This document shows positions 1 through 47,933 of a stretch of DNA of 47,933 bases, in pieces. Origin of the DNA: a virus; IMG/VR virus record IMGVR_UViG_3300035211_000061, positions 1 through 47,933 of that record. One strand, written 5' to 3'. Both the position numbers and the translations under genes were made by a program. Under the pieces are notes generated by a model. That model ran no database searches, was not told where the DNA came from, and worked only from the letters and a program-made list of their open reading frames with translations. Position 1 is the first letter of the stretch, and each line of letters opens with the position of its first letter.

Positions 1-16
1 GTGTTCATCTGCGGAT
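1..16. repeat. Left copy of 16-nt terminal repeat
   Basis: The first 16 bases are repeated exactly as the last 16 bases (47918-47933). Within it CATC (6-9) and GATG (14-17) form a small dyad around TGCG. The terminase is of the GpA (cos-cutting) family, so this could be a 5' cohesive end filled in at both termini during library preparation. It could also be a residual assembly overlap of a circular contig. Confidence 0.8.
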
Positions 17-46
17 GCCGGTCCTCGCGGTCACAGGGATTTTTTT

Positions 47-93
47 TCGACTTAACCAAATCGACTTAACCACACGAATCCGACTGAACCACT
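47..93 (+). repeat. Three direct 11-mer repeats, cosB-like
   Basis: The 11-mer CGACTTAACCA occurs at 48-58 and 62-72, and as CGACTGAACCA at 81-91. A nearly exact inverted copy, TGGTTAAGTCA, lies at 165-175. All sit between the contig end and the small terminase gene, where lambda keeps its terminase-binding R sites. The repeats are seen directly; the role as small-terminase binding sites is inferred. A repressor or activator operator is the alternative. Confidence 0.6.
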
Positions 94-95
94 CC

Positions 96-167
96 TTGTC
101 TTGTAAATAAGACAAAGTCCCGCAATCTAAGGCCAAATATGCCGAATATCCAGTTTTGACAAACTGG
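96..167 (+). promoter_or_regulatory. Two short inverted repeats before terS
   Basis: TTGTCTT (96-102) pairs with AAGACAA (109-115) across a 6-nt loop. CCAGTTT (150-156) pairs with AAACTGG (161-167) across a 4-nt loop. A TTGACA-like hexamer lies at 156-161, but no good -10 follows at normal spacing. These may be protein-binding sites in the packaging region or part of a promoter not read by the housekeeping sigma factor. Confidence 0.4.
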
Positions 168-190
168 TTAAGTCAACTGAGTTTGTCGAT

Positions 191-778
191 ATGAGGCCGA
201 TCACCAAAACGGACCTGTCGAGGCTCGCCGGCGTATCCCAGGCCGCCGTGTCGAAGGCGGTGCGCCAGGGCAAGATCCCCGTGCTTCCGGATGGGACCAT
301 CGACGCGGACGCGCCAGAGTGTGTCGCGTATATCGCTGCTCGATCTGACCGGAAGAAACCGCCTCAGAAAAAAGCGAAAAAGAAGAAGGCCGCCAGGTTG
401 GCGCCTAAGGCACCTCCGCCAATGCCGAACGTCTTCGACTCAGATGGCGAAATCGGAGTTGCCACACGAAAGCTCGCCATGGAATTGCAGCGGCTGTCTG
501 AGCAGACCCAAAATATGATGCTCAAGAACGCCCAATTGGAGGGGAAACTCGTTTCCAGGGACGTTTTCGAGTCGCGGATATGGAATCCCACGGAGACGTT
601 CTTGAGTCGTCTGCTCTCCGATGGGGTCAAGACGATTGTCGCGAAAATAATGCCGATGGCGAGAAACGGTGAGAGCCGCCAGAATTGCGAAATCGCTGTC
701 AGGAAAGAACTGTCGTCGCTGGTGAAATCGTTCAAGGCAGCGATGACGAGGTCAAAGAAGGTATGCCAAAGTGATTGA
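191..778 (+). CDS. Terminase small subunit (putative)
   Basis: A 195-aa protein. The N-terminus (about residues 3-30) reads as a helix-turn-helix of the type in small terminases and Nu1-like proteins (LSRLAGVSQAAVSKAVRQG). A Lys-rich stretch (53-70) follows, then an extended helical region (90-190) suited to oligomerisation and to binding the large subunit. It would recognise the packaging site immediately upstream, where 11-mer repeats are clustered. It overlaps the large subunit gene by 8 bases, which implies coupled translation. The ribosome binding site is weak. Function is inferred from position and the N-terminal HTH rather than from a strong family signature. Confidence 0.75.
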   Translation: MRPITKTDLSRLAGVSQAAVSKAVRQGKIPVLPDGTIDADAPECVAYIAARSDRKKPPQKKAKKKKAARLAPKAPPPMPNVFDSDGEIGVATRKLAMELQRLSEQTQNMMLKNAQLEGKLVSRDVFESRIWNPTETFLSRLLSDGVKTIVAKIMPMARNGESRQNCEIAVRKELSSLVKSFKAAMTRSKKVCQSD

Positions 779-33592: not shown

Positions 33593-34283
33593 AGAAATCG
33601 CATGCAGTATTCACGATTCCGTGGCTCGAAATGCATTTTGATTTCGCATTGGAAATCAAAACTAGCGCGGGTTGCTCCGACAGGTCTGGCCCTGGAAGTG
33701 CATTGTACGTCGGACACTCTGTGACTTCTGCATCGCGGTTCAAGAGGCGAAACCCGCAATTGAGCTGTCGCCATCGATAGATTTTCGATCTCGACTCACC
33801 GAGGCCGCGAAGCATGCGCAATCGATACGTATATCGCTCGACTGGCCCGCCGAGCTCCGCGAGTTCCGCCTCTTCGCCCCTCCCCCCTCGACGCGTCGAC
33901 GCAAACACCTCATAGGCGTTGGAGGGGGAGCGCCCCCCAGTGGACAGCAAGGCGAGTGTTGGGCCGTCCAACGGGGGGCACGTGAGGAAATCAAAGGCAG
34001 TATCCGGATCTTCAAAATCACCAACCAGGAGACGGGAAGCACGGCGCTTCAGGTCGCTTTCAGGCATACGCGCCCAGGATGCCCAGTCATTGACCTTATT
34101 CGTCCAATAGGCGGCGGCCTGCTCCTCATGGCGGGCAACCTCGACGGCTTTCCTGATGGCAGCAAACGCTCGACGAAACGCTTTGACGGTCGGCCCGTCG
34201 TCGACCTCGTCGAAATCCTCTGCGGCAAGCGCAAAGTCGTCGAGTAAATTTTCGTCTGGGCGTATGGCGGTGGCGGTATTCAC
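33567..34283 (-). CDS. Hypothetical protein downstream of integrase
   Basis: About 238 aa from GTG 34283, preceded by GGAGGAAGC and overlapping the integrase stop (GTGA), so it is translated with the integrase. The first 90 residues are acidic then helical (FRRAFAAIRKAVEVARHEEQ). The C-terminal half is Arg-rich and less convincing. Its last codons run into the decamer repeats. No HTH is visible, so I do not call it a repressor. Confidence 0.5.
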   Translation of the reverse strand: MNTATAIRPDENLLDDFALAAEDFDEVDDGPTVKAFRRAFAAIRKAVEVARHEEQAAAYWTNKVNDWASWARMPESDLKRRASRLLVGDFEDPDTAFDFLTCPPLDGPTLALLSTGGRSPSNAYEVFASTRRGGRGEEAELAELGGPVERYTYRLRMLRGLGESRSKIYRWRQLNCGFRLLNRDAEVTECPTYNALPGPDLSEQPALVLISNAKSKCISSHGIVNTACDFYGHVRDGP

Positions 34284-35497
34284 GCTTCCTCCTTGTGCAT
34301 CTCGAAAATTTTGTCTTCTCGGCACTTGGCGGGCCCCATGATTCCCCAGTATTTTTGATACGCATCAGGCCTCAGGTGGGCATAGCGCCGTGTCATTTTG
34401 CTATCCTTGTGACCGAGGATTTCCTGCAGCGCGTATGGGTCTCCGCCGTTCATTACCCAGTGACTGGCGAATGTGTGGCGGAGCGAGTGGAAGGTGATGT
34501 ACTTTGGTGGGAACCCTCCTCGATGCAAGACGTTGTGAAGGACCTCCTGGAAGATTCGCCCGGATTGGTCCCACATTTGGCCCTTGTTATTTGGGAACAC
34601 TAACCGTTTAGAGCCGCTGGCGAGTTTCCATTCCTTCAAAACCGGCAATAGTTCGTCTAGGATTGGAACGCTGCGGACCTCGCCAGATTTTGTCAGACCA
34701 CCATACGATCGCTGGACAGTTATGAGGCGGCGTTCGAAACTGATGTCCTCCCAGCGTAGCCCAGCGAGCTCCCCTGCCCTCATTCCGGTGTAGATCGCGG
34801 TGGCGTACATCGGCAACACAACCGGCCAATGGTGCGCCTTTGCCGCGAGCAAAAAGTGCTCACGCTCCTCAGTTGTCTTCAACCATCGGTAGTCACCTGA
34901 AAAATACCGAACGCGCGGAAGTCTTATTTTTGGCTTTTTATCAATCCATCCCCACTCAATAGCCTGCCCGAGCATTCCGCCGAGTAGAACCAGTATGTTT
35001 CGAGCCGTTTGTGGTGCCTTCGATGAAATTAAATCGGCCTGGAAAACCGCTATCCTCTCCGCCGTCACATCGCTGATTTTCAACCCTGAGAACGCCGGAA
35101 TAAGATGAACGCGCGTTATGGATTCATCGTCCTTTCTCGTCCGTTTTTGCGGTGTCCTGGTTTCGAGCCATTTTTGCGCCAACTCGTCAAATGTGTGGCC
35201 ATCCGGCGGTCTCACCCTCAGCCCGCGCCTGACCTGCTCTACCTCCAGTTTTCTCGCCATCAGCGCATACTCGGCATCCTTGTAGTCGCCGTACACCTCG
35301 CTTCTGCGATATCCGGATTCGTCCATCCATCGGATCTGCCATTTTCTGCCGTGCCTGATTGGTTTACTCACTCTGATATGTCTACTCAAGACGCACCTCC
35401 ACCTTGCAAGCGGCACATAAGCGCCACTTGGTTTCCCCGCCATATCTGAGATTTCGAAATCCAATATGACTGTATCAAGACACGGTAAAGGTGGCAA
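34280..35497 (-). CDS. int: Tyrosine recombinase/integrase
   Basis: Up to 405 aa; the true start may be one of several codons within the first 45. A basic arm-binding N-terminus (KWQIRWMDESGYRR), a core-binding domain (about 100-195), then a catalytic domain with R240 (TGMRAGEL), K270, H337-x-x-R340 (HSLRHT), H363 (LGHKDS) and the nucleophile Y372 (MTRRYAHL). It would recombine attP, 150 bases upstream at 35647, with the tRNA-Arg gene of the host. Confidence 0.93.
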   Translation of the reverse strand: MPPLPCLDTVILDFEISDMAGKPSGAYVPLARWRCVLSRHIRVSKPIRHGRKWQIRWMDESGYRRSEVYGDYKDAEYALMARKLEVEQVRRGLRVRPPDGHTFDELAQKWLETRTPQKRTRKDDESITRVHLIPAFSGLKISDVTAERIAVFQADLISSKAPQTARNILVLLGGMLGQAIEWGWIDKKPKIRLPRVRYFSGDYRWLKTTEEREHFLLAAKAHHWPVVLPMYATAIYTGMRAGELAGLRWEDISFERRLITVQRSYGGLTKSGEVRSVPILDELLPVLKEWKLASGSKRLVFPNNKGQMWDQSGRIFQEVLHNVLHRGGFPPKYITFHSLRHTFASHWVMNGGDPYALQEILGHKDSKMTRRYAHLRPDAYQKYWGIMGPAKCREDKIFEMHKEEA

Positions 35498-35564: not shown

Positions 35565-35646
35565 GAAATGCACATATGCCGTGCAGCAACTCACTGCAAA
35601 ACATTGCATCAATGCGCCGAAAATATTGATTATTTTTGTTTTTTCG

Positions 35647-35691
35647 TGGCGGACGATAAGCGACTCGAACGCTTGACCTTCGGTTCCGGAG
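35647..35691 (-). other. attP core: 3' half of tRNA-Arg(CCG)
   Basis: Read on the minus strand this is exactly 45 bases from tRNA position 32 to 76. It comprises anticodon loop CTCCGGA (anticodon CCG), 3' anticodon stem ACCGA, variable loop AGGTC, T arm AAGCG-TTCGAGT-CGCTT with a perfect stem, acceptor ATCGTCC, G73 and CCA. The 5' part of a tRNA is absent and the adjacent bases do not pair. Insertion at a host tRNA-Arg gene would therefore restore it. Confidence 0.9.
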
Positions 35692-35940: not shown

Positions 35941-36144
35941 ATGGCATTGCTGACGATAAAAGAGGTTGCGAGTCGACTCTCATTGAGCGTGAACACAATC
36001 AGGCGGTGGGTTCTCGAAGACAGAATCAACTACATCAAGCTCGGCAAAGGGAACAGCTCAATCAGGTTTGAGGAGAAGGATATCGATGCCCTGATCGAAT
36101 CCGGTAGGCGCGGTCCATCCACCGATGACGTTCAGACCGTCTGA
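35941..36144 (+). CDS. Excisionase-like HTH protein
   Basis: A 67-aa protein, ATG 35941 after GAGAGGA. Residues 1-55 form a winged helix of the MerR/excisionase (helix_turn_helix_17) type: LTIKEVASRLSLSVNTIRRW, then a wing with KLGKGNSSIRFEEKDI. Right next to attP and first in the rightward operon, so an excisionase or recombination directionality factor is likely. A transcription regulator is the alternative. Confidence 0.75.
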   Translation: MALLTIKEVASRLSLSVNTIRRWVLEDRINYIKLGKGNSSIRFEEKDIDALIESGRRGPSTDDVQTV

Positions 36145-36151
36145 GTGGGCC

Positions 36152-36835
36152 ATGAACAAGAAGAAACCCAGGCGGCCTATCGGTCCAAATGAGCTGAAAT
36201 GGATTGAGGACAATATTGGCTACACGATCAGGATCGCCCAGTACATGTACAGAAAGTACAACAAAAAATACGATTTCGACGACATCCTATCGTCCGCATA
36301 TGATGGACTTGTTGACGCGGCAAGATTTTATGATCCGGAAAAAGGTTCCGCGACGACATTTTTATCATTTCGGGTCTCCGCGATCATATCGAGGGACATG
36401 AAAAACCAGTGCTACACGCGCCCCCTACGGGTTCCAATTATCACCCAGGAAAAGCATAATCGAGAGTTTCTCGCCGCGGCGAGGGAGGAGGCGATGACCG
36501 GGGAGAACGTTCCGGTTGACCCGCTCCCGAGTCAGCGTCTCGTGTCCAAGGTGTCAGATCGCGATACCTACGACCTGAACGATATGGATCTGATCGACTC
36601 ATGCACCAGAACACCGGAAGAAGTTTTCGAGGCTAAAGAAGCCGCGATCATCGCGTTTGGCACCGTCAAAAATAAGCGCAGTCGGTCCATAATAATAGAT
36701 CGTTTTTTCCGAGGGAAAACCCTCGAGGAAGCCGGGGATAAAATCGGTATCAGCAGGGAGAGGGTTCGGCAAATCCAGGACGAAACGCTCGAACTAATGC
36801 GCGAAGCAATAGAAAGGAGCGGCAATGATCAATAG
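36152..36835 (+). CDS. Phage-encoded sigma-70 family factor
   Basis: About 227 aa from ATG 36152, seven bases after the HTH gene stop. Region 2 at about 41-85 has FDDILSSAYDGLVDAARFYD and PEKGSATTFLSFRVSAIISR. Region 4 at about 177-219 has IIIDRFFRGKTLEEAGDKIG followed by ISRERVRQIQDE, a near-perfect sigma HTH. The middle region is longer than in small ECF sigmas. It would direct host RNA polymerase to phage promoters, probably for late genes. No anti-sigma is visible. Confidence 0.88.
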   Translation: MNKKKPRRPIGPNELKWIEDNIGYTIRIAQYMYRKYNKKYDFDDILSSAYDGLVDAARFYDPEKGSATTFLSFRVSAIISRDMKNQCYTRPLRVPIITQEKHNREFLAAAREEAMTGENVPVDPLPSQRLVSKVSDRDTYDLNDMDLIDSCTRTPEEVFEAKEAAIIAFGTVKNKRSRSIIIDRFFRGKTLEEAGDKIGISRERVRQIQDETLELMREAIERSGNDQ

Positions 36836-37169
36836 ATTCACGGGCAATCCGCTTCCGCCAGGGTGGTATGAGATTCCACATGGCGGATACCACGGGGCTT
36901 GGGTCAATCCGAAAAAACAGATGAAGGTGATCGCCTCGTTCGAGGTTCACGACCAAAAACAGTGGCTTCACGTGTCGATCTCGCATGAACGGAGGATGCC
37001 GACTTATCAAGACCTGGTCTACCTCAAGCGGCATTGGATTGGTGTGGACAAAAAAGCGGTGATGGTACCCCCAGAAGAGTCTGAGCACGTCAATATTCAT
37101 CCGCGGTGTCTCCATCTTTTTTGTTGTCTGAATGGGGATCCATTGCCTGATTTCAAATGGTCAATTTGA
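36825..37169 (+). CDS. DUF7694-type phage protein
   Basis: A 114-aa protein, ATG 36825 after AAAGGAG, overlapping the sigma stop. The conserved block LVYLKRHWIGVDKKAVMV, then SEHVNIHPRCLHLF and GDPLPDF, is that of a widespread small phage family of unknown function. Its stop overlaps the start of the DUF1376 gene (TGATG). Confidence 0.75.
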   Translation: MINRFTGNPLPPGWYEIPHGGYHGAWVNPKKQMKVIASFEVHDQKQWLHVSISHERRMPTYQDLVYLKRHWIGVDKKAVMVPPEESEHVNIHPRCLHLFCCLNGDPLPDFKWSI

Positions 37170-38137
37170 TGAACCGATATGACTTCTACATTGGTGACTA
37201 CTTGAGGGACACCTCGGACTTATCTATGGCCGAGGACGGCGCCTATGTCCGCTTGCTGAATTGGTACTATGCGAATGAAAGACCGATTGAGGATCGGAGA
37301 AAATTTTCGGTCGCGCGTGCCGTGACTGAAGAGGAACAGAAAATAACCCAGTGGGTTTTGTCTAGGTTTTTTATTTGCAGAAAAAAAGACGGCGTCGATA
37401 TTTGGGTTCACAAGAGGTGCAACCTCGAGATAGCAAAAGCAGTTCCTCGCATTAAAGCAGCGAAAGAAAACGGAAAAAAAGGAGGTCGTCCAAAAAAGGA
37501 AACCCAGAAAAAACCCAGTGGGTTTTCCAATGGGTTACCTACTGGGATACCCAGTGGGGTACCCAGTGGGGAAAGCTCTCCTTCTCCTTCTACTTCAGAT
37601 AATATATCTATTGGGAGATCCCATATATATATAAACGGAACTACTTCAAGGGATCAAATTGAGGAGACATCGAAAGTTGATCTACAGCCAATCGACGAAG
37701 CATTAGAGTTCCTTCCGAAACTGGAAGATAGGAATCTCGCAAGATTCATCCTGACCGTTTGGTCGGACTGCACAACAGCGGACGCCGTCGCATGGGTACA
37801 GCAAGCGAAGACATACCTCATGCAGCTCGACGGAGACCCGATGAGGTGGCTTGAGGACATCTCCACGAGCAAATCGCCAAACGACCCTGTCTACGACATT
37901 AACGGCCGGAACAGGCTTCATCAGTGGCTGATGAATTGCCTGAAAAACACCATCCGGAAACAAAAACAAACCGCCTCGAAGACAGGCGGAAAAGTAGAGC
38001 AACAGCTCGAGAAACTAGGGAGGCTCCGAAATGAGCGAATACGAAGAGAGGCAGAGGCCAACGGTGACCATGGACACCGTGGAGAGGATGTTTGCACGGA
38101 TGACGGCGGCATACCAGGGACGGATCGAGTCTTCTGA
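37169..38137 (+). CDS. DUF1376 (YdaU-like) replication protein
   Basis: About 322 aa from ATG 37169. The N-terminal DUF1376 domain begins MNRYDFYIGDYLRDTSDLSM and contains EDGAYVRLLNWYYANERPI; such proteins sit where phages encode replication initiators. A Lys-rich patch (KAAKENGKKGGRPKKE) follows, then a Pro/Ser/Gly linker made by a 12-bp tandem repeat, and a helical C-terminal domain. The last 35 codons overlap the helicase-loader gene in another frame and are probably not conserved. Confidence 0.78.
   Translation: MNRYDFYIGDYLRDTSDLSMAEDGAYVRLLNWYYANERPIEDRRKFSVARAVTEEEQKITQWVLSRFFICRKKDGVDIWVHKRCNLEIAKAVPRIKAAKENGKKGGRPKKETQKKPSGFSNGLPTGIPSGVPSGESSPSPSTSDNISIGRSHIYINGTTSRDQIEETSKVDLQPIDEALEFLPKLEDRNLARFILTVWSDCTTADAVAWVQQAKTYLMQLDGDPMRWLEDISTSKSPNDPVYDINGRNRLHQWLMNCLKNTIRKQKQTASKTGGKVEQQLEKLGRLRNERIRREAEANGDHGHRGEDVCTDDGGIPGTDRVF
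37514..37573 (+). repeat. Five 12-bp tandem repeats in coding sequence
   Basis: Five adjacent 12-base units related to CCCAGTGGGGTA (37514-37525, 37526-37537, 37538-37549, 37550-37561, 37562-37573). They encode a Pro-Ser/Thr-Gly linker between the two domains of the DUF1376 protein. Being a multiple of three, copy-number change would alter linker length without a frameshift. Confidence 0.9.
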
Positions 38138-40044: not shown

Positions 40045-40821
40045 ATGAAAACTACATACGTAACGCTCAAGCCAGATATGGCCCGCGCGTATCGCGAGAA
40101 ACTAAAGAGGAATACGCGGCGGGTTATCAAGTGGCCGAAATGGTTAGACCCGGCCTTGACAGATACCTCGCTTGAGAGAATCGCCGAGATAATTAACTCG
40201 AATAAGTATCGCGGTGTGGTCAAGCGCGGTCGTTGCGACGGGATAGAGAATCAATTCCGATGCCCCTATGGGTGCCCCGGTGACCAGCTCATCCTTGGGA
40301 CTACGTGGTCGGTACCGAAGGAATTAGACCATCTGAAACCGACAGAGTTACCCGTAGGTTATTTGGCTGGATTGCCTGTAATGACGACATCAGGAACTGG
40401 TGCGGCATTCAATCCTATTCCGATCTGGTCCTACTTCGACGGATACAAAAAACCTGAAGGGTTCGGAAAGCTGCGACCGGGCCGGTTTCTTCCGAACAAG
40501 CTTCGCGATAGAATGCCGCGTGAGACGTTGGAGATTGTACGCGCTGAGATGGTGCAGGACATCACCGAGAAGGATGCAGTGATGGAAGGGGTGAGCACCA
40601 TCCATGTTGAGATCCCACCTGGGCCATCAAACGATTTTGAGGGCGATTATAGATTCGAATATGTTGACTACATGAATCCAGGCGAGTTCGCAGGGTGGAA
40701 TGGCGATGCTGGTTCTTTGTTTTCAGCCAGAGAGTCGTTTCAATCACTTTGGGACTCCATCAATGCAGCCCGTGGATACAGCTGGGACTCGAACCCATGG
40801 GTTTGGGTTTTGGGGTGGTGA
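40045..40821 (+). CDS. ASCH-domain phage protein
   Basis: A 258-aa protein, RBS GAAAGGA. It follows the pattern of phage ASCH-type proteins: RNTRRVIKWP near the N-terminus, CPYGCPGDQLILGTTW, GRFLPNKLRDRMPRETLEIV, MVQDITEKDAVMEGV and the C-terminal LWDSINAARGYSWDSNPWVW. ASCH domains bind RNA or modified bases. Its role in phages is not settled. Confidence 0.78.
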   Translation: MKTTYVTLKPDMARAYREKLKRNTRRVIKWPKWLDPALTDTSLERIAEIINSNKYRGVVKRGRCDGIENQFRCPYGCPGDQLILGTTWSVPKELDHLKPTELPVGYLAGLPVMTTSGTGAAFNPIPIWSYFDGYKKPEGFGKLRPGRFLPNKLRDRMPRETLEIVRAEMVQDITEKDAVMEGVSTIHVEIPPGPSNDFEGDYRFEYVDYMNPGEFAGWNGDAGSLFSARESFQSLWDSINAARGYSWDSNPWVWVLGW

Positions 40822-43873: not shown

Positions 43874-44746
43874 ATGAGATCGAACAGCATTGTAAAGGTC
43901 GAGTTTCGCGGTGGCGAGCTCGAAGCGGTGAAGAAGGACGGGAAGGTCTGGGTTTCGGTCCGGCGTGTATGTGAGGCGCTTGGTATTGACGTTGAGAGTC
44001 AGAGGAAAAAGCTGAAGGACGAGGCTAGAGCGCCATGGGCAGTCACGGTCATGATGACCGCAACTGGACCGGACGGGAAAAACTACCAGACATTCATGAT
44101 TGACCTAGACTCATTTCCCATGTGGCTCGGCACTATCGATGCGTCACGGGTAAGAGAAGAGATTCGGCCCATGCTCATTACCTACCAGAAAGAGGCGGCC
44201 ATCGTCCTCAGAGATCACTTTTTTGGGAAACGTACGGAGACACCAGAGGAAAAAGAGGCGCGCCTGTGGGCCCGGGAGCGGCGCCTCATGGCGCAGCAAA
44301 AAGCGCGCGGATGGAGAATCTTCAGAAGACTCGCCGAGGAGTCTCAGCGGACGGAGTTGGTCAAAACATTCGACGTCCGTATCGCAGAGACGCTGACAGG
44401 CGACAGCCACCCCGAGCTGCTACCTGTCGCAGGGGAAAGGGCTGAATGGATGTCACCCGCTGAAATCGGCGAGCAGCTCGACGTTACGGCCCACCGGGTC
44501 GGGCTGACCATCTCGGAGCTTTGGGGCAGGGGCAGGGATGACATTGAGGATATTCGTGAGGTGCGCATGAGCACGGCGCCGAACGGCAAACAGATTACGA
44601 TGAGTTATTACTCTCCCCGAGCGGTCGCGCTTATCAAGCAGAGACTCACAAATTTTGGGTATTGCAGCGTTGAAGAGACTCCGGTCATGAAGATGAAGCG
44701 TGAAAACCTTGATCTGTATCCGGAGAAGTACGGGGATAGACCGTAA
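43874..44746 (+). CDS. Phage antirepressor, P22_AR_N type
   Basis: A 290-aa protein, RBS AAGGAA. The N-terminal domain (VWVSVRRVCEALGIDVESQR, then KKLKDE and MIDLDSFPMWLGTID) is the P22 antirepressor N-domain. A helical linker follows, then a C-terminal winged-helix-like region (SPAEIGEQLDVTAHRVGLTI). It would inactivate a repressor to trigger induction. No target repressor is obvious in this window. Confidence 0.83.
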   Translation: MRSNSIVKVEFRGGELEAVKKDGKVWVSVRRVCEALGIDVESQRKKLKDEARAPWAVTVMMTATGPDGKNYQTFMIDLDSFPMWLGTIDASRVREEIRPMLITYQKEAAIVLRDHFFGKRTETPEEKEARLWARERRLMAQQKARGWRIFRRLAEESQRTELVKTFDVRIAETLTGDSHPELLPVAGERAEWMSPAEIGEQLDVTAHRVGLTISELWGRGRDDIEDIREVRMSTAPNGKQITMSYYSPRAVALIKQRLTNFGYCSVEETPVMKMKRENLDLYPEKYGDRP

Positions 44747-44747
44747 A

Positions 44748-45494
44748 TCACCCGCGATTCCTAAAACACCGCTGAATCTCAATCTGACGAATGACCGCCT
44801 CCCGGTAGATCTCTGGAAACTTTCTCACCACCTCGTCGACGGCCGGCTCAAGCCACTTGTGTGCCTCGGTCCGGACGCTCGGCTTGTCCGCCGAGTATAG
44901 CATGCGCAATTTGGTCCCGGTAGGCCATCCGTGGGCGCTCTTCCGGCCGCCGAGGACTCGATAGAAGCCCGTCGGCCTGTCCCACTGGTCATATCTCTTG
45001 TCGATGAACACGACGCGCTTGCCGCCCTTGATCGCCTCTCGGACGTCCGCCACCGTCCTGCCGGGCCCGCGAATCCGATTTTTCGGTGGGTTGACCTGGC
45101 TCAGCCAGTTTCGGCGTTGTAGACGCCGTGTGCGCACCCTGGCCTCCCCTTGCCCCGCCGCCGCGGCCGTTGGGATTGCTACACCGTGCGATCCGCTCTT
45201 TTGCTGGGTGAAGCCTTCCTCTTGCTTGGCCATGTACTCCTGGACGGACCCGACGGCGCTTTTCATCTGGTCAATGTCCCTGGCAAACGTCTTTTCGTAT
45301 CGTATTGATCGGCGAGTGAAGGTGTTCCGCTCTATGAATTGACGTCCGAGGTCGTCCTTGGCGGTCTCGGACGCTTTGTATGCTGTCGTGTTGAGTGTGT
45401 CCCGGACGGCATACGGAAGGGCGCGCTTCCCGAACCGGTCGAGGTCGTTCTCGAGCTGCTCGATGGGGCGCAGGTCAATATCTATAGTGAGCAT
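44748..45494 (-). CDS. Virion-type protein on opposite strand
   Basis: About 248 aa from ATG 45494, preceded by a perfect AGGAGGT; an in-frame upstream extension is a shadow of the lipoprotein gene. Contains ALPYAVRDTLNTTAYKASET, RNTFTRRSIRYEKTF and AVGSVQEYMAKQEEGFTQQK, a pattern I know from phage minor virion proteins (GPZ/gp10-like head-tail proteins). It is separated from the structural operon and has a strong leader hairpin, so it is probably expressed independently. Confidence 0.65.
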   Translation of the reverse strand: MLTIDIDLRPIEQLENDLDRFGKRALPYAVRDTLNTTAYKASETAKDDLGRQFIERNTFTRRSIRYEKTFARDIDQMKSAVGSVQEYMAKQEEGFTQQKSGSHGVAIPTAAAAGQGEARVRTRRLQRRNWLSQVNPPKNRIRGPGRTVADVREAIKGGKRVVFIDKRYDQWDRPTGFYRVLGGRKSAHGWPTGTKLRMLYSADKPSVRTEAHKWLEPAVDEVVRKFPEIYREAVIRQIEIQRCFRNRG

Positions 45495-45507
45495 GGTACC
45501 TCCTACC

Positions 45508-45624: not shown

Positions 45625-45666
45625 GCCCCGGTCGGGTGTCTTTCGACATTGCAGCCCGGCCGGGGC
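45625..45666 (+). terminator. Strong GC hairpin upstream of lipoprotein gene
   Basis: GCCCCGGTCGGG (45625-45636) pairs with CCCGGCCGGGGC (45655-45666), one G-T pair in 12. A smaller TGTC-TTTC-GACA hairpin lies in the loop. GGCTTTT follows. It may be a weak terminator or an mRNA leader structure; the lipoprotein ATG is 19 bases after it. Confidence 0.5.
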
Positions 45667-45684
45667 GGCTTTTCGAGGTTTGTC

Positions 45685-46446
45685 ATGTCAAAATGGATAT
45701 TTTTGACGGCTTTGGTCATAGGGTGCGACGTAGCACCGGACGCTTTTTCGGGATCCACGGATTCGGATTCGGATACCGACACCGATTTCGACAGTGATGA
45801 CACGGAAAATTCGAGTGATTCCGCAGTTGGTGCCGATACGGACACGGACAACACCGACACCGGCGACAATCCCGTCTGCACGCCGAACGGTATGGACAAC
45901 TGCACATGCCCGGAAGGGGGGAGCGGTGTCCGGATCTGCAATGCAGACGGGTCCGGCTGGGGGGCGTGCCTATGCAGTGAGGTGGAGACGGACACTGATC
46001 GGTGCGATGACTATCGGATCTATGGTGGCGACAACACCGGAGAGCTTTGCATGAGCACTGCAGAGGCAGCTCAGATTTGCGCAGATCATGGTGGAACAGG
46101 ATTCTATGCCCAAAACTGTGTCGACAATGGCTACAATGGGCAGTGCTGCAAGCAACCGCCACTTTGCCCGGAAGACGATATTGCCTATGAGTGTATGATG
46201 GGTGACAAGTTGACAAAATGTGGAGTAGATAGGGGCGGCAAGGTCAATTACAACTATCGATGTGACATGCCTGGAACCCCAGATGCCTTTTGCTGCGAAG
46301 ATATGGACACAACCATGGAGACGTGCACCGGGGATAGATATTGCGTTGATTTAACTGGATCATCTGAGTGCGTTTCCGAGGGTGGAACTCTTGCGGATTC
46401 TTGGGATTGTCCACTTTCTAAAAATCAACGGTGCTGCATTCCATAA
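45685..46446 (+). CDS. Asp/Ser/Thr-rich, Cys-rich lipoprotein
   Basis: About 253 aa from ATG 45685; an in-frame upstream start would spoil the signal. Signal and lipobox: MSKWIFLTALVIGC (cysteine 14). Then a low-complexity Asp-Ser/Thr linker (about residues 24-62; DSDSDTDTDFDSDD), then Cys-rich modules (CTCPEGGSGVRICNADGSGW; CKQPPLC). The style is that of surface lipoproteins in Deltaproteobacteria/Myxococcota, so this is probably host-derived cargo. It may change the lysogen surface or block superinfection; both are inference. Confidence 0.75.
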   Translation: MSKWIFLTALVIGCDVAPDAFSGSTDSDSDTDTDFDSDDTENSSDSAVGADTDTDNTDTGDNPVCTPNGMDNCTCPEGGSGVRICNADGSGWGACLCSEVETDTDRCDDYRIYGGDNTGELCMSTAEAAQICADHGGTGFYAQNCVDNGYNGQCCKQPPLCPEDDIAYECMMGDKLTKCGVDRGGKVNYNYRCDMPGTPDAFCCEDMDTTMETCTGDRYCVDLTGSSECVSEGGTLADSWDCPLSKNQRCCIP

Positions 46447-46459
46447 AGGAGATGAACGA

Positions 46460-46858
46460 ATGAGGAACATAACCCTGTGTACCGTCATATTATTTATGCT
46501 TTCAATTATCGGATGTGGACAGCCAAATTTAAATGTAGAGTGCTCCATGAATGGACTTGGAAATGGTGTTTGTGACTTCACAAACACTGGTGAGGGATCT
46601 GGTGCCCTATGCGGGGAAGTCACCGTTGTGGATAAAAACGGCCGCGAGATAAAATCTTCAGTATTCTGCAGTGGGAATATTGAAAGATCTACAACAAAAA
46701 GGGTCGAGTTTGCCGTTGGTGGAGTTTCAGAGTTTTGCGCGGCAGATGGGCAATCATGGAGTGATGTGTGTAGCTTCACATTTACCACTGATGATGCTGA
46801 ATATAACCGAAAACTGGTTATGAAACGGATTGAAGAAGAAAAGAAATTGGGTGAATAG
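46460..46858 (+). CDS. Small lipoprotein
   Basis: A 132-aa protein from ATG 46460, with AAAGGAGA upstream. Signal MRNITLCTVILFMLSIIGC (cysteine 19). The mature part reads as a small beta-sandwich (ALCGEVTVVDKNGREIKSS) with several Cys, and ends in a charged helix. Forms a pair with the upstream lipoprotein. Possible superinfection-exclusion or lysogenic-conversion gene. Confidence 0.7.
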   Translation: MRNITLCTVILFMLSIIGCGQPNLNVECSMNGLGNGVCDFTNTGEGSGALCGEVTVVDKNGREIKSSVFCSGNIERSTTKRVEFAVGGVSEFCAADGQSWSDVCSFTFTTDDAEYNRKLVMKRIEEEKKLGE

Positions 46859-47481: not shown

Positions 47482-47874
47482 GTGGATTTTCATGAAATAG
47501 CTGTACGGCATCTAAGACTATCGCTGAGTAAGCACAGCGAACTTGGCCCGACGGATGATTTCTTTGGTGCACTTACAGTCCTACAAGGAGATAATCGCAA
47601 TATTCTAGATGAGCTTCATAGTGATGAAAACTTCATCGAAATGTTGGTTTCAGAATCTTATGATGTAGCATCGTATACAGGTATTTCGCAGTTTAGGGCC
47701 ACTGAGGTGGTAGCACAGCTTGTTACAGAATTGCTCGGACATGAAAGCGGTAAGGACTATCCATTTATCAGCGTAAATGTTTATACAGAAGGAATATCCG
47801 GAACATGGTACGAAGATATACTGAGGTGGAGTATTCACGACAAACTGTGCGATCATTATGGAATTCCTAAATAG
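47482..47874 (+). CDS. Hypothetical protein, last gene before cos
   Basis: A 130-aa protein, GTG 47482 after AAGGA. Acidic, mixed alpha-beta (DFFGALTVLQGDNRNILDEL); lower GC than the structural genes, consistent with acquisition from elsewhere. Family unknown. Transcription would run into the cos region. Confidence 0.6.
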   Translation: MDFHEIAVRHLRLSLSKHSELGPTDDFFGALTVLQGDNRNILDELHSDENFIEMLVSESYDVASYTGISQFRATEVVAQLVTELLGHESGKDYPFISVNVYTEGISGTWYEDILRWSIHDKLCDHYGIPK

Positions 47875-47901: not shown

Positions 47902-47919
47902 GTGGGGAGGGGGCGGGGT
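47901..47919 (+). other. G-rich tract next to the right end
   Basis: Runs of G (2, 4, 5 and 4) separated by single bases end one base past the start of the terminal repeat. The spacing would allow a G-quadruplex. It could stall polymerases or help mark the packaging end. Confidence 0.4.
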
Positions 47920-47933
47920 GTTCATCTGCGGAT
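47918..47933. repeat. Right copy of 16-nt terminal repeat
   Basis: Identical to bases 1-16. See the left copy for interpretation. Confidence 0.8.

Follow-up and report, generated by a model that had tools for sequence, protein, structure and literature searches.

Several phages are known to encode sigma factors with proven roles, namely T4 with gp55, SPO1 with gp28 and gp34, and various Bacillus phages with sporulation-like sigma factors (PMC9429907). They are no rarity: a survey of 4,350 phage genomes found sigma factors in 13.4% of them, temperate ones included, and some of these proteins act on the development or dormancy of the host (PMC9429907). Here, we describe a divergent sigma factor gene in an IMG/VR virus record of 47,933 nucleotides, which was analysed as one stretch over its full length and is referred to as the window in the following.

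The gene (36152-36835, plus strand) encodes a protein of 227 residues; an upstream in-frame ATG at 36125, which would extend it to 236 residues, falls within the preceding gene. The protein belongs to the sigma-70 family, and its match to this family is far beyond chance. Region 4 scores 47.8 bits against Pfam Sigma70_r4 (PF04545; E 1.1e-12, cut-off 24.1), region 2 scores 22.3 bits against Sigma70_r2, slightly below the cut-off of 24 (E 1.2e-4), and the sigma70-ECF superfamily model of NCBIfam is passed with 50 bits (cut-off 42.9). Furthermore, the protein matches PHROG 351, ‘RNA polymerase sigma factor’ (E 9e-15), and aligns over residues 16-224 to solved RpoS chains, its best match among PDB sequences (E 8e-15). 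An AlphaFold model built from 37 aligned sigma proteins has a mean pLDDT of 85 and displays confident helices for the sigma2 domain (36185-36412, plus strand, residues about 12-87) and the sigma4 domain (36614-36817, plus strand, residues about 155-222), connected by a linker that is disordered in the model (pLDDT below 50 at 130-151). Region 1.1 is missing, and the model shows no region 3 domain with confidence. In fold searches, the model retrieved sigma-S and sigma-A chains as the top PDB matches and phage sigma factors from the viral library; the whole-chain TM-scores were low, about 0.37, which probably reflects the free placement of the two domains. Since the PHROG 351 match lies in a record that also encodes terminase, portal, capsid and sheath, we regard the protein, on sequence and predicted fold, as almost certainly a genuine phage sigma factor.

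The two domains differ in how well they preserve the promoter-reading residues of their bacterial counterparts. Region 4.2 bears the motif SRERVRQI, in which R202, E203, R206 and Q207 align to R584, E585, R588 and Q589 of E. coli RpoD, the residues that contact the -35 box; together with the Pfam score, this identifies the helix-turn-helix expected for -35 recognition. In region 2.4, by contrast, F73/R74 replace W433/W434 of E. coli sigma-70 and S76/A77/S80 replace R436/Q437/T440, so that its -10-reading residues are altered; R74 is common to FliA. An earlier, sequence-only reading of the window had described a near-perfect region 4 and a clear region 2. The former is borne out, while the latter is clear in the predicted fold and weaker in sequence than stated, so that region 2 is recognized here by the superfamily score and the confident sigma2 fold. 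Because the -35-reading residues are kept and the -10-reading residues altered, the predicted target is a normal TTGACA-like -35 box combined with an unusual -10 element.

The phage that carries this gene is temperate, as judged from its integrase, an excisionase-like gene and a tRNA-3'-end attP. The tyrosine integrase (34280-35497, minus strand; Pfam PF00589 E 6e-29, PHROG 1 E 1e-67) is divergent from the early operon, whose first gene encodes an excisionase-like HTH_17 protein (35941-36144, plus strand; Pfam HTH_17 E 5e-12, PHROG 66 excisionase E 1e-8). Between them lies a tRNA 3'-end fragment, the likely attP core (35646-35674, minus strand), with a 5-bp T stem, a TTCGAGT loop, a 7-nt acceptor strand, the discriminator and an encoded CCA. 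This pattern of T arm, acceptor strand and CCA occurs only once in the window and in none of 200 mononucleotide shuffles; as a likely attP, the fragment also offers a possible route to the host. Rfam and ARAGORN detected no RNA gene in the window. The sigma gene directly follows the excisionase-like gene and overlaps by 11 bases at its end with a gene for a DUF7694 protein (36825-37169, plus strand; Pfam PF24746 E 5e-19), which as a query retrieved no related viral contig. A DUF1376 or primosomal-type replication protein (37157-38137, plus strand; Pfam E 3e-17, PHROG 3992 E 4e-23), a possible helicase loader and a Holliday junction resolvase (Pfam, PHROG) come next. As the sigma gene comes second in the operon, behind the excisionase-like one, and the phage has both a tyrosine integrase and an attP, early expression upon induction is likely.

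Since a single attP lies between the integrase and the excisionase-like gene, instead of an attL and an attR apart from each other, the record resembles a genome that was excised or packaged and would be circular in the cell. A 16-base direct terminal repeat, GTGTTCATCTGCGGAT at 1-16 and 47918-47933, suggests that the sequence closes into a circle or has an end close to cos, 190 bases ahead of the terminase gene. The virion genes comprise a GpA-type large terminase, a portal, a lambda E-like capsid, a contractile-tail sheath, a tape measure and a baseplate hub, and the late (packaging) block opens with the small terminase subunit gene (191-778, plus strand; PHROG 57 E 1.5e-13). Further along, an antirepressor-type protein with a P22_AR_N domain (43874-44746, E 8e-35) hints at a repressor-antirepressor switch besides the sigma factor. 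At 45649-46446, the protein starting from about 45685 has the look of a lipoprotein that is rich in Cys and contains Ser/Thr-Asp repeats; this style occurs in Myxococcota-like bacteria and may be a clue to the host. A scan of genome contigs with the large terminase, aimed at the host, found none.

These computed features (family, both domains, kept -35 and altered -10 residues, operon position, temperate life style) are the basis of our preferred reading, to which we assign a probability of roughly 55%: that an early-expressed phage sigma factor turns the RNA polymerase of the host towards phage promoters. A divergent sigma-70 family protein would be made early after infection or induction, and its region 2 is predicted to bind the host core enzyme. 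Its RpoD/RpoS-type region 4.2 would then read a TTGACA-like -35 box, its altered, FliA-like region 2.4 a non-standard -10 element, and polymerase would be moved from host to phage promoters as the lytic cycle enters its next stage. Core binding, the change in promoter choice and the preference for phage over host targets are the steps that we infer here. The position of the gene, between the excisionase-like and the replication genes, speaks in favour of this reading.

The relatives of the phage show how common such a gene is in its surroundings. In its structural genes, the phage is related to Shewanella phage SppYZU01 and to the VP16T group. Word-based scans of viral and genome contigs revealed no close relative of the sigma factor, and its nearest homologues in the collections are less than 33% identical, which counts against our reading. 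With a four-sequence sigma alignment as query, 80 viral loci were found, one of which (L029) lies on contig G001, whose phage is closely related to that of the window (terminase 58%, sheath 60%, portal 52%). The sigma factor of G001 is RpoS/RpoD-like (E 1e-48) and just 26% identical to that of the window. Its gene (L091:7645-8559) is located in the early region, directly before a homologue (34%) of the window gene at 40045-40821; the open reading frame just 5' of it (L091:7139-7723) appeared ECF-like by eye and matched no sigma model. In G038, another near relative (sheath 53%, major capsid 72%), neither the region 2 nor the region 4 models detected a sigma factor. In G071, which is more distantly related (capsid 41%), a gene located between those for the large terminase and the portal (L191:758-1375) encodes a FliA/WhiG-like sigma factor of 205 residues. 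A region 4 search of 93 related records returned only G001 and G071 above the cut-off, with the qualification that many of these records are fragments with structural genes only, where absence weighs little; the six isolate genomes among the relatives, searched whole, contain no sigma factor. In a tree of 55 sigma proteins, the window and G001 sigma factors are not joined, and we claim no kinship for the window protein, which sits on a very long, unsupported branch. A protein encoded opposite to the early operon (44748-45504, minus strand) is kept in both G001 (56%) and G038 (46%) and has no Pfam match.

Related phages therefore mostly do without a sigma factor. The genes are rare, belong to three different classes and do not share one conserved position, a pattern suggesting that this clade acquired them repeatedly and independently. 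Furthermore, because nearly all structural relatives lack one, late transcription in the clade does not generally need a sigma factor. Conversely, G001 carries a non-orthologous sigma factor in place of that of the window, a swap that suggests selection for possessing one.

Rarity and the mixture of classes are also what would be expected of an optional acquired gene, and they could be explained if the sigma factor were directed at the host. By analogy with the sporulation-like sigma factors reported in Bacillus phages, it might be a fitness gene that alters host expression, such as stress, development or surface genes, during lysogeny or infection, and that is unneeded for phage genes. Dormancy-altering phage sigma factors have indeed been published (PMC9429907). 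We nevertheless consider this unlikely, as the gene is second in the early operon, outside the accessory block and its lipoprotein-type genes (45649-46858), and a lysogen normally keeps its early genes silent.

The promoters of the window bear on the preferred reading, redirection to phage promoters, in both directions. Host-type sites were scored with a sigma-70 matrix modelled on E. coli, whose type of promoter may not be the one that the host uses. By this measure, the best site at the early (xis) start is no better than chance (P 0.49 against shuffles), and the corresponding values are 0.61 at the small terminase start and 0.65-0.86 at the 4164/4200 starts. The starts at 43874 and 45685 have weak candidates (P about 0.04 before correction; 0.035 for 45685), and that at 47482 has a good host-type promoter (P below 0.005). 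Since the early start scores no better than the small terminase or 4164/4200 starts, the scarcity of host-type promoters is not special to late starts. A search of 11 transcription-unit starts for a bipartite motif of 5+4 bases with a spacing of 15-18, limited by the few starts and the lack of close relatives, yielded none that is common beyond shuffles, which counts against the redirecting sigma factor.

The region upstream of the small terminase gene (1-190, plus strand) contains four GACTTAACCA-type repeats, a TTGTC..GACAA dyad and the element TTGACA-N4-GGTTAA at 156-171. This element recurs in G038 (L181:127-142), is absent from the other loci among 187, and matched in none of 100 shuffles, with about 0 expected by chance. 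In G038, GACAAT, a fair -10, lies 17 bases after TTGACA; in the window, this place is taken by GAGTTT, which is also a dyad half, and there is no consensus -10. The retention of a consensus TTGACA with no consensus -10 at 17 bases is in favour of a redirecting sigma factor. It should be noted that the TTGACA lies within an imperfect dyad, TTGACAAACT-N14-AGTTTGTCGA, and may be part of an operator rather than a promoter. Overall, the region fits a promoter-operator whose -10 is off consensus in the sigma-bearing phage, a single case that does not prove sigma dependence. As a repeated promoter, TTGACA-N17-GAGTTT was rejected: it has 49 matches at up to three mismatches against 38.6 expected, and its one exact match is the site of its derivation, inside the dyad. 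The GACTTAACCA-type repeats (49-174; three exact, one of these inverted, and one with a mismatch) could be terminase (cosB-like) or repressor sites; at the corresponding position, the end region of G038 contains GGTTAACC three times, at L181:49, 119 and 137.

An early start with no host-type promoter better than chance, together with the location of the gene inside the excision and replication operon, would also suit a sigma factor of the early or middle stage, i.e. one that boosts its own operon or the genes for replication, recombination or excision instead of the late structural genes. Such a role strikes us as improbable, given that a sigma factor encoded in the operon cannot be required for its initial transcription and that internal promoters are unsupported by any motif. 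Lastly, it is very improbable that the protein is degenerate and inactive and merely competes for core polymerase or binds DNA: region 2 falls short of the Pfam cut-off, and the W-W pair of sigma-70 is missing from it together with further -10-reading residues, yet the 227-codon frame is intact, the sigma2 and sigma4 folds are confident, and FliA-type sigma factors are active though they also lack the W-W pair.

The redirecting sigma factor remains our preferred reading, while the interpretation offered by the sequence-only reading, a late-gene sigma factor, is supported in part. A sigma factor encoded by the phage (Pfam, PHROG, NCBIfam and PDB matches plus a confident fold), second in the early operon of a temperate phage, stands as proposed. 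What falls away is the argument that late promoters lack obvious -35/-10 pairs, since the early start lacks one too, 47482 has a good and 45685 a weak candidate; the expected common motif upstream of late starts did not emerge, and the rarity of the gene among structural relatives, six isolate genomes included, speaks against its necessity. Nor is there a contrast with other temperate phages: as the published survey includes temperate phages and, of the 36 viral contigs with a sigma gene that were tested, 13 also carry an integrase above the cut-off, sigma factors of temperate phages are already a known kind.

A bolder proposal, which we hold to be rather doubtful, is that this contractile-tailed clade repeatedly captured unrelated sigma classes (short and divergent in the window, RpoS/RpoD-like in G001, FliA-like in G071) and built each into its own transcription programme; in the window, the late genes of a temperate phage would then be driven by a sigma factor that pairs an RpoD-like reader of the -35 box with a novel -10 specificity. 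If the sigma factor does drive the later genes, this temperate family would exert temporal control by sigma replacement, not by antitermination or an activator, and three captured classes in one clade would mean that phages easily swap their transcription switch. Being compact, with a -35 reader of the RpoD type and an altered reader of the -10 element, the sigma factor could also find use as a tool. The present evidence supports an ordinary phage sigma gene, real yet fairly unremarkable: a divergent version of the bacterial protein that directs RNA polymerase to its start sites.

Among known systems, the phage sigma factors of PHROG 351 resemble it in a full match from region 2 to region 4, although the window protein covers only the core of the 928-position profile and has a very long branch in the tree. 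Among 50,697 phage records, if a cellular rpoS in a single draft record is set aside, the protein matched nothing except ORF 2 of Salisaeta icosahedral phage 1 (26% identity over 88%, E 3e-5), which carries the annotation RNA polymerase sigma factor. This phage likewise has an integrase, but it is a different virus type, its sigma factor is longer (340 residues against 227), and the two are separate in the tree. With cellular RpoS and RpoD, the protein shares region 4.2 and its -35-reading residues, and differs in region 2.4 and in lacking region 1.1 and a confident region 3; it scores 52.9 bits against the RpoS equivalog model TIGR02394 (cut-off 378.7) and is far under the RpoD equivalog cut-off of NCBIfam. 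Its region 2.4 is instead similar to that of FliA/WhiG (sigma-28), with R74 at the position of the FliA arginine and a weak match at residues 27-80 (TIGR02479, 26.8 bits against a cut-off of 189.6), while its region 4.2 is of the RpoD/RpoS kind. Finally, it is likened to the sigma factors of T4, SPO1 and Bacillus phages by its predicted role, a phage-encoded sigma factor redirecting host polymerase; T4 and SPO1 are lytic, whereas the window phage is temperate.
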